Positions 49,698 through 56,216 of a DNA stretch of 64,000 bases are shown piece by piece; within the stretch, counting starts at the first letter, position 1; every line of letters begins with the position of its first letter. The translations under genes were made by a program, and so were the position numbers. This DNA comes from Paracoccaceae bacterium (GTDB taxonomy: Bacteria; Pseudomonadota; Alphaproteobacteria; Rhodobacterales; Rhodobacteraceae), in assembly GCA_004153385.1 (NCBI GenBank), contig SDAL01000001.1, forward strand, positions 310,001 through 374,000, given 5' to 3'. Below the pieces are notes generated by a model. It was not told where the DNA came from. It was given only the letters and a program-made list of their open reading frames with translations, and ran no database searches.

Positions 49698-50255
49698 GCC
49701 GATCACGCCAAGGCACGCGCGGGGGCCTTATCATGGAAGGCTCCGATACGCGGGGTGCCTTGGCCCAGCGCATGCGCGTGCAAAACCGCGGCCCCTGCGC
49801 TGGGCCAAGGCCGGCGGGTCATCGGGCCGTTGCTCTTTTGTTCACGATTTCGGGAGCCGATATCTTCCGCGGACGCATGTCGTCGCCCGCGCAGTACCGC
49901 TATGTGCACAGAGCGTCGCGGCGGCGGACGTTCTTCTTTTGATCCAGAATCTGAAGGATCGTGGTGTTTAATGGGGGTCATGTGCAGATTTTGGCCGTGA
50001 TCGGGGCGGGGTCGGGATCAGGCCATCGCCGCACTGTAAAGAACAAACCATGATCTGGATGCCATGACAGCTGTCCGGAGCACAGGGATATCCACACCAC
50101 CGGACGTTAGATAAATCCTTGAATCTGTGAAAAAATAATTTAGGTCTCTGATACTCTTCTGGGCCGGCTCGGCAAGCTCGGGCCGTGTGTCATAATTCAA
50201 CGCGAAATGTGGCTGCCGCAGGTCAACAAGGCGGCAGTTTCCGGTCAGGATCACT
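49698..50255. other. Intergenic region before the large helicase gene
   Basis: About 560 bp with no convincing gene. The first part holds a 16-bp hairpin (49757-49811). An AT-rich patch around 50105-50160 is the likeliest promoter for the helicase gene; no ribosome site stronger than GGATC is seen before its ATG. Confidence 0.5.
49757..49811 (+). terminator. 16-bp perfect hairpin after the AraC gene
   Basis: Arms GCCTTGGCCCAGCGCA (49757-49772) and TGCGCTGGGCCAAGGC (49796-49811) enclose a 23-nt loop, 59 bp past the AraC stop. No U-tract. Confidence 0.5.
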
Positions 50256-53200
50256 ATGGATACGTCATTAGATTTTGTGGATGAGGACGCGGGCACCGCC
50301 CTGCAGATCGATCTGAGCACAACGGCCAAGGTCAACTTTGCCTCGTCGCAAAACGGCGTGTCGATCCTCCAGCACCTGACGCTTGTGAACACAGGCTCCG
50401 TGGCGCTGGAGGGTTTGGTGGTCCACGCCAGTTGCCAGCCCGGACTGATCCGCCCCAAAACATGGACGCTGGACCGGCTTGCGCCCGGTGATCGCCAGTC
50501 AATACGCGATCTGGAAACCCCGCTTGATACCGCGATATTGGGCATGCTCAACGAGGCGGAATGGGGTGAGGTGTCTGTGCGCATCGACTATGACGGTGCC
50601 CCGCGCCTGACCGAGACGCGCCGCATCGAGATGCTGGCCCGCGACGAATGGGGCGGGCTTGAGGATATGTCGGGGCTGATCGCCGCCTTCGTGCAGCCCA
50701 ATAACGCGACCGTGGCTGCGATCTTGAAAGACGCAAGCGGGCTGTTGGAACAGGCCGGCCTGAGCGGCGCGATCGATGGCTATCAAAGCCGCGATCCGGC
50801 GCGGGCGTGGATGCTGGCCGGTGCGATCTGGTCTGCGGCCACCGCGCTCGGACTGAGCTATGCCGTGCCGCCTGCCAGTTTCGAACACCGCGGCCAGAAA
50901 ATCCGCGATCCGGGACGGATGCGCACCGAAGGCCTGGCCACGTGTCTTGACAGCGCGCTGTTGCTTGCGGGCTGTTTCGAGGCGGCGGGCCTTAATCCGG
51001 TCGTGCTGTTTGGCGAGGGCCACGCCTGGACCGGCGTCTGGCTGACGGATCGTGATTTCGGCTCGATCACCGAGCCAGATGTCATGGCGGTGCGTAAGGC
51101 GATTGATGCGCGCGAGTTTGTGACGATGGAAACCACGCTTTTGTGCCAGCGCCCGACTGTCGGGTTCGATCAGGCTGTGGAGCAGGGGCGCGATCTGACC
51201 GCCGAGCGGGTCGAGCATACGTTTGCGGTTGCGGTGGATATCTGTCGTGCACGGTCCGCGCGGATCCGGCCGCTGGCGCAGCATGCCGCGGGCGAGGAGA
51301 TCGAAAGCCGCGATATTCCGGCCAGCCCGGCTGCCTTGCCCAAACCGCTGGATTTCGGTTTTCTTCCCGATGATCTGGTCGAAGAGGCGCCCAAGACTGC
51401 CGCGGACCGTATTTCGCGCTGGCAGCGCAAACTCCTGGATCTGTCGTTGCGCAACCGGTTGCTGAATTTCCGCGATTCCAAGCAAACCCTGCCTTTTCTG
51501 TGCCCCGATGTCGCATCGCTCGAAGATCAGCTTGCCGCGAATGGCAAATTCAGAACGCTGGCGCTGAACGATGAAAATCCGCCCGGTATGGCGGAGGCAA
51601 TCGCCCGCGACGAGGCCCAGATACTGGAGGAGGTGGCCCGCGATGCTTTTGATAAAGGCCAGATTGCGGTTCCACTGACACGGCGCGAAACCGACAAGCG
51701 GCTGCTGGAGCTGCACCGCCGCGCCAAAAGCGATATGCAGGAGGGGGGGACGAACACGCTGTTTCTGGCCGCAGGGTTCTTGCGCTGGAAGAAAACGGAA
51801 ACCGACGGGCGCAGCTACCGCGCACCGCTTTTGCTGATTCCTGTCAAAATCTCGCGCCGGTCGGCGCAGTCCGAATTCGTGATCGAGCATCACGAGGATG
51901 ATGTGCGGTTCAACTCTACCTTGCTGGAATTTCTCAAGCGTGATTTCGATCTGAGCATCCCAGAGCTTGAGGGCGATCTGCCGCGCGATGGGGTGGGCTA
52001 TGATCTGCCGCGTATCTTCGAGATCCTGCGCCGGCGTGTGCGCGATATTGCAGGTTTCGAGGTGGTCGAGGAACTGGCCCTGTCCACCTTCTCTTTCGCC
52101 AAATTCCTGATGTGGAAGGATCTGGTGGACCGCACCGATGACTTGCGTGAAAGCCCTCTGGTCAGATATCTGGTGGATAACCCTACCGAGCCGTTTTTGC
52201 CTGATGGCTCTGCCGGACTGCCACAGCCCGCCGATATCGACAGACGGGTCGCGCCGCGCGATCTGTTCACGCCTTTGCCGGCCGACAGCTCGCAGCTGTC
52301 GGCGGTTCTGGCCGCGCAAGAGGGCCATGATTTCGTTTTGATCGGCCCCCCCGGCACCGGCAAAAGCCAGACCATCGCCAATATCATCGCGCAATGCATC
52401 GCGGTGGGCAAAACGGTCCTGTTTGTCGCCGAGAAATCTGCCGCGCTGGATGTGGTCCATCGCAGGCTGAAGGCGCACGGGCTGGCCGATGCGGTGCTGG
52501 AGCTGCATTCCAACAAATCCGATCGCAAATCGGTTGTCTCGCAGCTGGGGCGCAGCTGGGATCGGGCCTGTGATACAACACAAGCCGATTGGCACCGTGT
52601 GACCGATGATCTGGGCATCACCCGACAGGAGCTGAACACATATGTGGCCGCACTCCACCGCACCGGCTCGCAAGGCTTCAGCGTGTATCAAGCCATCGGC
52701 CACAGCGCGCGCCTGCGTCCGCCATTCCGGCTGCAGTTCGACAATATCGATGCCCATGATACTGAAAGCTACGCCAATTTGCAGCGGCTTGCGCAATCGC
52801 TGGCGCGTGGTCAGGAAATCATCGCCACCTTGCCTCAGTTCCCGTTGGTCGGGGCGACGGATTGGTCTTTCGCGTGGCAAGATGCGTTTCTGACGGCGGC
52901 TGATGCACTGGCGCGGGCGACAACCGATCTGGTGACGGCGGCCACTTCGGTGGTGCAGCTGACGGGTCTTCGCGCCGACCCGGCCCAAAACCGGGAGGAT
53001 CTTGGGAAGATAGCCGCGCTGGGTCAGATCACGACAACGGGGCAGGATGTCAGCTGGGGCTTGTCGCAGGATATGGCGCGGTTGTCGCAGGAAGTGGACG
53101 ATTTTATCCAGCTTGTGGCAGACTATCACGACAGTGTCGCGGCCTGCGCGGCGCGCTACCAGATGGACCGGCTGGAGACGATGCCGCTGGATCAGCTGGA

Positions 53201-56200
53201 CGCGGACTGGCGTGTGGCGCAAACAAAACTGTGGCCGTTTTCCAGCCTTGCGCAATCGTCGGTGCGCAAGCTGTTGCAAACCTACGCGGTAGAAGGCACC
53301 GCCGATCCGGCCCGTGATATCACGGCATTAAGCAATGCCCGCCGCGCCCGCACCAAAATCGAGGCACATCGTTTGCAAGCGTGCCCCGCCTGCGACGGGG
53401 TCAAGACGGACACCGCGACGCTTTCTCAGTGGCTTGTGCAGGCGCAAGACCTCTATGGGGTCCTTCGCCCGTTGTCGCCAAGTGTGGTGGAGCGCACCCG
53501 ATGGGAGGCCGCCTGCACCAGCCTTGCCACGCGCGAGGCAGGGGAGGTTGCGCGCGCTGTGGCCGATCTGGGGGCGGCGCACTCGGAATGGAGCGATGCG
53601 GCCGCAAAATTCGCGCAGGTCGCTGCGTGCGATCTGGCACAGATCAGCCTGTCGGGGCTGGAAAAATCGCTGCGCACAATCCTTGCCAACAAAGAGCATC
53701 TTCTGGAATGGACCCGCTGGACGGAGCTGCGCACACGTGCGCGTGCCTGCGGTCTATCGCCGCTTGTAGAGGCGATAGAGGATGGCCGCCTGCAAGACGA
53801 TGCGGGTGATGCATTCGCGGCAGCCTATGCGGCATGGTGGCTGCCACTGGCCATGGATGGTGACGAGGCCTTGCGCGGGTTTTCGCATTGGGCGCATGAG
53901 GATGCGATCAAACGCTTCCGTGAACTGGTCGATCAGGCCACGCAGATGTCGTCCGCGCAGGTTTTGCAGCGCGTCCAGCACGGTCTGCCGGCACAGGATA
54001 TGGTGGCACGCCGGTCCGAGTTGGGGACATTGCGCCACCAGATGGGCCTGCAGCGGCCCAGCATGCCGATCCGCTCGCTGATCTCGGAGATGCCCGACAC
54101 TTTCACCAAACTTGCGCCCTGTGTGCTGATGTCGCCCTTGTCGGTGGCGCAATACCTGCCCGCAGGGCAGGCGGCGTTTGATGTGGTGATCTTTGATGAG
54201 GCCTCCCAAATCACCACATGGGATGCCATAGGCGCCATCGCGCGCGGGCGTCAGGCGATTATCGTGGGCGATCCCAAACAGCTGCCGCCGACCAATTTCT
54301 TTGGCCGCGTTGACGGGGGCGAGGAAGAAGTGGCTGAAAACGAACGTGATCTGGCCTCTATTCTGGACGAGGTCGCCGCTGCAGGCGTGCCCACCCGACA
54401 GCTTGACTGGCACTATCGCAGCCGCGACGAGGCGTTGATTGCCTTTTCAAACTGGCATTATTACGGCGGGCGTCTGGTCACGTTCCCGTCGCCCACGATT
54501 ACCTCGGATGCGGTCCAGTTGCATTATGTGGATGGCGTTTATGGTCGTGGGCAGGCGCGCACCAACGTGGCCGAGGCCCGTGCGATCGTGCGCATGGCTG
54601 TTGGGCGCTTGAAGGGCTGGTTGAAAGACCCCGAGGCAGACCGCCTGACTTTGGGTGTGATCACATTCAACGCCGAACAACAGGGTCTGATCCTTGATCT
54701 GCTGGACGAGGAACGCCGTCAGACCCCCGATCTGGAGTGGTTCTTCGAAGATGCCCGCGAAGAGCCGGTGATCGTAAAGAACCTTGAAAATATCCAAGGT
54801 GACGAACGCGACGTGATGCTGTTTTCGGTGACGTTCGGCCCTGATCCGGCGGGCAAATTGTCCATGGCCTTTGGTGCGCTGAACGGCGAGGGCGGCGAAA
54901 AGCGCCTGAATGTGGCGGTCACACGGGCGCGGCGCGAATTGCATGTGTTCTCGTCGGTGCGTGCCGACCAGATCGATCTGGGCCGGACGCGTGCGATGGG
55001 GGTGAAGCACCTCAAGGGCTTCCTTGATTACGCGGCCCGCGGTGCGGAGGCTTTGCCCGCGCAGGACGACGGTTCTTTGGGGCCGGTAGAGAATGTGTTC
55101 GAAGCGGCGATCAAAACCGCAATTGAGGCCAAGGGCTGGGAGCTGCGGCCACAGATCGGGGTGTCTGGGTTCCGCATCGATCTGGGTGTGGTCCATCCCG
55201 ATCATGCGGGCGTCTATCTGGCGGGGATCGAATGTGATGGTGCCAGCTATCACAGCTCTGCCACCGCGCGCGACCGTGACAAGGTGCGACAGGTCGTATT
55301 GGAAAACCTTGGCTGGACAATTTTGCGCATCTGGTCAACCGACTGGTTCCGCAACCCCAAACCGGTGATCGAGCGTATTCACGCGGCGCTGTGCGATCAT
55401 CTTGAACGTGATCGCGCAGCGCGCGCGCAGCGCGATAGTGCGGCCGATGCGAATAACATCCCGTTTGACGCGGATGCCGAGCTGGCTGCACCCAGCGGGG
55501 ATACTCCGGCCAGTGATGCGCAAGAAAAGGACGCGCATGAGAATGACGCGGTGCCTAGGGACATGCCCGCCCGCCATGCCGCGACAGGCGCGCAGGCCAT
55601 GACATCCATACCTGAGGGCGGCGTTGAGGGGGGCGATCACACACTCGCAGGCGATGTCGTGCCCTGCGCACCGCCCGCCACCCCTTACGCGCTTCATGAT
55701 GCCAGCAGGGCGCAGGCCAAGACGGCCACACCCCCTCCACCCGATCCGGCGCGGTTCTATGATCTGTCCTATATTCCGGTGCTTGAGCGATTGGTGGCGG
55801 ACGTGGCTCACGCACATGCGCCGCTGACCTTTTCGCAACTGGCCAAGCAGATCACCGCGATGCACGGGTGGACGCGTGCGGGGCGGCGCATCTGCGAGCA
55901 GATATATGACGCGCTGGCGTTGGTCGAGGTCCATCCAGAGGAAGGTGTGGACTTCATCTGGACCACAGGCAGCTACACCGACCGCTTGCCGTTTCGTGCA
56001 GGGCTGATGCGCGATGTGCGCGATATCTCGCGAACCGAGATTGCCGGTCTGATCGAGGCGCATCCGGACGCCCTGACAGTCGCGACCGATCCCGTACGGG
56101 AACTGGCGCGCCTGGCAGAGGTGGGCCGTTTGTCATCAGACGTCCGCAGCTATCTGGAGGGCTGTCTGCGATGGCAGGCCGAGACCGCACACAGCCCGCG

Positions 56201-56216
56201 TGGGCCGGAGGCGTGA
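50256..56216 (+). CDS. Giant TGase-like / DUF4011 / SF1 helicase / PD-(D/E)XK nuclease / DUF3320 protein
   Basis: A 1986-residue multidomain protein. About 1-200: beta-rich region. About 205-330: transglutaminase-like region with ATCLDSALLLAG (C230) and EGHAWTGVWL (H256). About 385: DUF4011 start (RISRWQRKLLDLSLRNRLLN). SF1 helicase: Walker A GPPGTGKS (697-704), DEAS (1314-1317), GDPKQLPP, HYRSRDEAL, IQGDERDV, VTRARRE (about 1555). Nuclease of the MTES_1575 type: GFRIDLGVV (D1642), GIECDGASYH (E1659, D1661), then LGWTILRIWSTDWF. A disordered linker (about 1725-1830) leads to a winged-helix DUF3320 at the C terminus. The combination suggests ATP-driven DNA or RNA processing and cutting. Related helicase-nuclease proteins turn up in bacterial conflict systems; an anti-phage role is inference. 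It is encoded alone. Confidence 0.93.
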   Translation: MDTSLDFVDEDAGTALQIDLSTTAKVNFASSQNGVSILQHLTLVNTGSVALEGLVVHASCQPGLIRPKTWTLDRLAPGDRQSIRDLETPLDTAILGMLNEAEWGEVSVRIDYDGAPRLTETRRIEMLARDEWGGLEDMSGLIAAFVQPNNATVAAILKDASGLLEQAGLSGAIDGYQSRDPARAWMLAGAIWSAATALGLSYAVPPASFEHRGQKIRDPGRMRTEGLATCLDSALLLAGCFEAAGLNPVVLFGEGHAWTGVWLTDRDFGSITEPDVMAVRKAIDAREFVTMETTLLCQRPTVGFDQAVEQGRDLTAERVEHTFAVAVDICRARSARIRPLAQHAAGEEIESRDIPASPAALPKPLDFGFLPDDLVEEAPKTAADRISRWQRKLLDLSLRNRLLNFRDSKQTLPFLCPDVASLEDQLAANGKFRTLALNDENPPGMAEAIARDEAQILEEVARDAFDKGQIAVPLTRRETDKRLLELHRRAKSDMQEGGTNTLFLAAGFLRWKKTETDGRSYRAPLLLIPVKISRRSAQSEFVIEHHEDDVRFNSTLLEFLKRDFDLSIPELEGDLPRDGVGYDLPRIFEILRRRVRDIAGFEVVEELALSTFSFAKFLMWKDLVDRTDDLRESPLVRYLVDNPTEPFLPDGSAGLPQPADIDRRVAPRDLFTPLPADSSQLSAVLAAQEGHDFVLIGPPGTGKSQTIANIIAQCIAVGKTVLFVAEKSAALDVVHRRLKAHGLADAVLELHSNKSDRKSVVSQLGRSWDRACDTTQADWHRVTDDLGITRQELNTYVAALHRTGSQGFSVYQAIGHSARLRPPFRLQFDNIDAHDTESYANLQRLAQSLARGQEIIATLPQFPLVGATDWSFAWQDAFLTAADALARATTDLVTAATSVVQLTGLRADPAQNREDLGKIAALGQITTTGQDVSWGLSQDMARLSQEVDDFIQLVADYHDSVAACAARYQMDRLETMPLDQLDADWRVAQTKLWPFSSLAQSSVRKLLQTYAVEGTADPARDITALSNARRARTKIEAHRLQACPACDGVKTDTATLSQWLVQAQDLYGVLRPLSPSVVERTRWEAACTSLATREAGEVARAVADLGAAHSEWSDAAAKFAQVAACDLAQISLSGLEKSLRTILANKEHLLEWTRWTELRTRARACGLSPLVEAIEDGRLQDDAGDAFAAAYAAWWLPLAMDGDEALRGFSHWAHEDAIKRFRELVDQATQMSSAQVLQRVQHGLPAQDMVARRSELGTLRHQMGLQRPSMPIRSLISEMPDTFTKLAPCVLMSPLSVAQYLPAGQAAFDVVIFDEASQITTWDAIGAIARGRQAIIVGDPKQLPPTNFFGRVDGGEEEVAENERDLASILDEVAAAGVPTRQLDWHYRSRDEALIAFSNWHYYGGRLVTFPSPTITSDAVQLHYVDGVYGRGQARTNVAEARAIVRMAVGRLKGWLKDPEADRLTLGVITFNAEQQGLILDLLDEERRQTPDLEWFFEDAREEPVIVKNLENIQGDERDVMLFSVTFGPDPAGKLSMAFGALNGEGGEKRLNVAVTRARRELHVFSSVRADQIDLGRTRAMGVKHLKGFLDYAARGAEALPAQDDGSLGPVENVFEAAIKTAIEAKGWELRPQIGVSGFRIDLGVVHPDHAGVYLAGIECDGASYHSSATARDRDKVRQVVLENLGWTILRIWSTDWFRNPKPVIERIHAALCDHLERDRAARAQRDSAADANNIPFDADAELAAPSGDTPASDAQEKDAHENDAVPRDMPARHAATGAQAMTSIPEGGVEGGDHTLAGDVVPCAPPATPYALHDASRAQAKTATPPPPDPARFYDLSYIPVLERLVADVAHAHAPLTFSQLAKQITAMHGWTRAGRRICEQIYDALALVEVHPEEGVDFIWTTGSYTDRLPFRAGLMRDVRDISRTEIAGLIEAHPDALTVATDPVRELARLAEVGRLSSDVRSYLEGCLRWQAETAHSPRGPEA

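Follow-up and report, generated by a model that had tools for sequence, protein, structure and literature searches.

Giant proteins combining HEPN, transglutaminase, SF1-helicase, Vsr-nuclease and wHTH domains (MTES_1575) were described by Anantharaman et al. in 2013 (PMC3710099), who proposed a role in defence in which the wHTH domains recognise invading DNA and the transglutaminase-like peptidase forms a further, protein-cleaving line of defence. NCBIfam holds an equivalog model, NF058533, under the name 'anti-phage protein ProA' (the primary paper behind this name was not found in the literature searched), and PADLOC lists PDC-S37 as a candidate defence protein with a DUF4011-helicase-nuclease-DUF3320 core. 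The Hhe system likewise has DUF4011, SF1 helicase and nuclease domains, and Mokosh (MkoA/MkoC) uses a related SF1 motor. Here we analysed a gene at 50256..56216 of the window, by which we mean the whole 64,000-nucleotide stretch under study. Its product matches NF058533 at 2057.3 bits (E 0, cut-off 1500; 2057.2 bits in the genome search), and positions 1-1901 of the 1903 in the profile align with residues 27-1956 of the protein, a full-length match that includes the N-terminal head.

Domain architecture and conserved residues

The gene is a single intact ORF on the + strand, with an ATG start, no internal stop and its stop codon within 50256..56216, and it codes for 1986 amino acids. A first-pass annotation made from the sequence had described a 1986-residue protein here, with a transglutaminase-like head, DUF4011, an SF1 helicase, a PD-(D/E)XK nuclease and a DUF3320 tail; the intact frame and the Pfam matches bear this out, and C230, H256, K703, D1642, E1659 and D1661 all lie at the positions it named. 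The HMM searches that it suggested place DUF4011 (162 bits) at residues 392-560 (51429..51935), REase_MTES_1575 (118.5 bits against a cut-off of 38.2) at residues 1615-1712 (55098..55391) and DUF3320 (35 bits) at residues 1833-1879 (55752..55892), each over its curated cut-off, as are the SF1 helicase families AAA_11 and AAA_12; like the gene itself, all of the features given here lie on the + strand. An antisense ORF of 926 aa overlaps the gene at 50499-53279, and at one homologous locus (L186:1393-7437) the antisense ORF overlapping ProA reaches 2015 aa; a longest-ORF gene caller chooses the wrong strand in L186 and L057.

Conservation was scored across 50 non-redundant full-length homologues from the fetched loci, and for the putative catalytic residues it is far beyond chance. 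The helicase is split (residues about 665-1590, 52248..55025, from Pfam, motifs and conservation), with a long and poorly conserved middle insertion at residues about 800-1240. Walker A (GPPGTGKS, 697-704, including motif I K703), Walker B (motif II, DEAS, 1314-1317) and the remaining SF1 motifs, among them motif III (GDPKQ at 1338), are all present and place the motor in SF1; G697, K703, S704, D1314, E1315, G1338 and G1515 are invariant. It resembles IGHMBP2, Sen1 and Dna2, and its best relatives among solved structures are SMUBP-2, Sen1 and Nam7. The nuclease residues D1642, E1659 and D1661 are each kept in 50 of 50 homologues, and the Vsr-like class is supported both by the profile match over cut-off and by these D...E.D residues. 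A model of residues 1591-1986 has a nuclease domain, then a disordered linker (residues about 1720-1820, 55413..55715, also poorly conserved) and then a winged-helix end, which Foldseek as well as the DUF3320 match supports. For the nuclease, Foldseek finds the Vsr-type endonuclease domain of 3hrl and the catalytic domain of I-Bth0305I, with weak E-values (about 0.01-0.03) and high target TM-scores.

The head was noted in the first-pass annotation for a Cys/His pair, which stands; a third residue of the putative triad, D275, had been overlooked. C230 (50943-50945) and H256 (51021-51023) are each kept in 49 of the 50 homologues and D275 (51078-51080) in 48, with a glutamate in one more. An AlphaFold model of residues 1-392, built from 46 homologues (mean pLDDT 91.9), shows an Ig/transglutaminase-type beta-sandwich (residues 14-129, 50295..50642) followed by an alpha/beta domain, the predicted transglutaminase-like core (residues 130-345, 50643..51290), with C230 starting a helix and H256 a strand. 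VIA-align gives the beta-sandwich a Z of 9-10 against the beta-sandwich domains of factor XIII, TG3, protein 4.2 and others. Foldseek puts transglutaminases 3 and 2 at the top for the whole head model (E 1e-4), with low TM-scores and a structural re-alignment that covers mainly the beta-sandwich. When eight regions of the protein were compared by hhalign with TGase cores from the same genomes, the head scored best, at a probability of only 5-6%, and the alignment put C230 and H256 onto the catalytic Cys and His. Pfam Transglut_core gave no match to the head, the transglutaminase-like family DUF553 was found in 12 of 46 members and only below threshold, with E values from 0.026 upwards, and a profile search of the head against solved structures gave no real match. 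Because the sequence evidence is very weak, the assignment of the head as transglutaminase-like leans on the triad and the model, and we make it with moderate confidence. Nothing supports the crosslinking activity that the first-pass annotation had entertained, and what has been proposed in print is a peptidase.

Relatives of about 1560-1575 aa from the same bacterial family lack the head altogether (L180-L183, in genomes G074, G113, G176 and G286). One of these headless copies (L181) adjoins type I restriction HsdR- and HsdS-like genes, and another (L183) lies near a reverse-transcriptase-like gene and a primase/Toprim-like gene. In Limimaricola pyoseonensis (L112:9908-15055), the head Cys and His are both lost (to A and R) while the helicase and nuclease residues are kept; the tail of this copy is apparently absent, since nothing matches beyond residue 1708.

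Distribution and genomic setting

The window lies on contig 1 of a 3.77-Mb genome whose genus is presumably Thioclava. Of the 16 genomes of this genus, 3 have a full-length copy; at the level of the family, the NF058533 cut-off is exceeded in 9 of 248 genomes. The copies in G011, G033 and G048 have different neighbours in each genome, and no neighbour matches a window gene. The G011 copy sits on a replicon of 478,822 bases, and the gene has identical coordinates on plasmid NZ_CP149927.1 (Thioclava sp. GXIMD4216). On 64 plasmid records at least 80% of the protein is present, and four Thioclava plasmids are among the best matches. The tree mixes bacterial classes: the mainly Rhodobacterales clade of the window copy also takes in copies from Halomonadaceae, Alcaligenaceae, Aurantimonadaceae and Chelatococcaceae, with gamma- and betaproteobacterial copies nested in it. 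The two Thioclava copies in the tree are not sisters; that of G011 is placed with Alloyangia and Mameliella, apart from the window copy.

One point against the defence reading is that a gene carrying DUF4011 can be core: such a gene marks hotspot cDHS1 on its right flank in all of the P. aeruginosa isolates examined (PMC10250203). The first-pass annotation had named a vertically inherited core gene, at one place in all relatives, as the finding that would count against its defence reading. What we find is patchy occurrence in genus and family, unrelated and variable sites, plasmid copies and a class-mixing tree, which rule out a vertical core gene; judged from these comparisons, ProA has spread horizontally. 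Several copies elsewhere are damaged, including one on a Rhizobium leguminosarum plasmid that is split by an IS21-type element (H20, NZ_CP018231.1:131019-139219) and frame-broken copies at L102, L104 and L115. Two Thioclava plasmid copies (L192, from the Thioclava sp. FTW29 plasmid, and L122) border a cluster of type VI secretion genes and have a Ser/Thr kinase gene next to them.

The window gene is flanked on one side by genes for an AraC regulator, a TonB receptor and an enterochelin esterase-like protein, and on the other by genes for an aldo-keto reductase, a histidine kinase and CobW; 558 bp of gene-free DNA (49698..50255) precede it. PADLOC found no further convincing defence gene among the 44 other window proteins, and no defence island was found at the site. 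GC3 of the gene is 0.717, equal to that of its neighbours, and there is therefore no compositional sign of recent arrival. We also looked for a clean empty site and obtained none: the left flank lacks a counterpart in 15 congeners, and the aldo-keto reductase region on the right aligns well in only three. Flanks of homologues matched 55 PADLOC models and control regions 19, a modest and weak excess in which single proteins match many models.

Possible partner genes, proposed action and alternatives

Clustering of the flanking genes showed that ProA is adjoined at many loci by two genes, one of about 375-419 aa, the other of about 880 or 1150 aa, the smaller coding for an SbcD/Mre11-like metallophosphoesterase and the larger for an SbcC/Rad50/SMC-like ATPase. 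The pair is present at 40 of 90 ProA loci, a raw count inflated by near-identical Mesorhizobium loci, and at none of 14 control regions; it is absent from all four headless loci and from the window. The label for the pair is carried by 21 of the 50 rows of the non-redundant tree, and its distribution requires several changes. Clade II, the sister clade (Mesorhizobium, Sphingomonas, Erythrobacter and others), has the operonic form, with the SbcD-like gene starting about 0-15 nt from the ProA stop; across many alphaproteobacteria the two genes lie directly downstream of ProA (L073:15970-19718, L074:6414-10162, L063:15552-19687 and others). In clade I, to which the window copy belongs, 5 of the 35 loci have the pair, oriented differently, and L188 holds another pair that has diverged. 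We found no description of this association in the literature searched. A RecQ-UvrD double-helicase fusion of 1896 aa lies directly downstream of ProA at three other loci (L045:15847-21534, L084:11777-17464, L046:6150-11726) and is possibly a second type of partner. The first-pass description of a solitary, all-in-one gene accordingly fits the window copy and most of its clade; it does not extend to the family, in which the SbcCD-like pair is common.

We consider it probable that the window gene belongs to the ProA anti-phage family as a solitary member that was acquired horizontally, and that its product has a DNA-travelling motor, Vsr-like cutting and a peptidase-type head. Invading DNA, of phage or plasmid, would be engaged by the winged helix at the C-terminus together with the SF1 motor; powered by ATP hydrolysis, the protein would move along this DNA, which the Vsr-like PD-(D/E)XK nuclease would cut. 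The transglutaminase-like Cys-His-Asp head would be a peptidase-type module that either regulates the enzyme or attacks a protein as a second line. We infer DNA rather than RNA as the substrate, the order of these steps, and that the head is a peptidase and not a crosslinker. More tentatively, the ProA core may be a platform with interchangeable heads and partners, working in the broad clade as a coupled three-gene system with the SbcD/Mre11-like and SbcC/Rad50-like proteins and in the window's clade as a self-sufficient single gene, with the head linking protein cleavage to the detection of processed DNA ends; we regard this as conceivable and somewhat doubtful.

The recurrence of the pair at ProA loci and its absence from controls also raise the question of whether the window gene is an orphaned or incomplete part of a larger system, one in which ProA works with the SbcD/Mre11-like and SbcC/Rad50-like proteins in relatives while the window copy either uses the host SbcCD or is less active. 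The operonic pairs of clade II and the five clade I loci that also hold the pair point this way, as does the window, since neither it nor its genome has a close partner (for the genome, the empty search is weak evidence). However, many of the operonic loci come from closely related Mesorhizobium, and clade I is mostly solo: 30 of its 35 loci lack a full pair, yet the clade keeps its catalytic residues, which makes the solo form look stable, and we think it rather unlikely that the window copy is a remnant.

SbcCD-like proteins are repair-type enzymes, and together with the likeness of the motor to IGHMBP2, Sen1 and Dna2 and the metabolic neighbourhood of the window gene they would suit a housekeeping helicase-nuclease of DNA repair or recombination with no defence role. 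Such a gene is hard to reconcile with sporadic presence, spread across classes, plasmid carriage and variable sites, or with the name anti-phage that NCBI gives to the family, and we judge it very unlikely. An RNA-targeting system, in which a motor of Upf1/Sen1/IGHMBP2 type acts on phage transcripts, is the reading to which we give the least credence. The closest solved structures of the motor would suit an RNA substrate; the DNA-endonuclease fold of the Vsr-like nuclease and the DNA-break enzymes that are frequent SbcCD-like neighbours favour DNA, and the winged-helix tail also argues against RNA.

Relation to known systems

The window copy is ordinary: it is one more member of a family that has already been named and that carries a functional hypothesis from 2013. 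It matters more as a lead, and what is of most interest came as a by-product from beyond the window, the SbcCD-like association of its relatives; those recurrent neighbours, the headless relatives and the one natural C230/H256 double loss offer a clear way to probe the role of a transglutaminase-like peptidase inside a DNA-cutting defence protein. The claim that the gene is a candidate defence system holds at the level of the family, for which a defence role is supported by NF058533, by PDC-S37 and by patchy, horizontal and plasmid occurrence; no direct phage evidence for this gene was found. Its novelty falls away, since NF058533 already covers the protein and both family and architecture were described earlier, and it is not a new candidate system.

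The known systems differ in how much of the protein they share. With Mokosh the motor alone matches (80-95 bits), far more weakly than PDC-S37 or Hhe. Hhe scores 543 bits with PADLOC and 791.5 bits with NCBIfam NF042953, well below the cut-off of 2000, which rules out membership and makes it a relative. PDC-S37, recovered by the PADLOC search that the first-pass annotation had called for, matches residues 383-1974 at 1186.8 bits (profile positions 7-1533 of 1550) and represents the shared core only. The MTES_1575 proteins of 2013 have the same domains from transglutaminase head to wHTH tail and the same nuclease family. The described cases also have a HEPN domain; in the window protein Pfam finds no HEPN family at E up to 1. 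With ProA as defined by NF058533, the match runs the full length of the protein and no difference was found.
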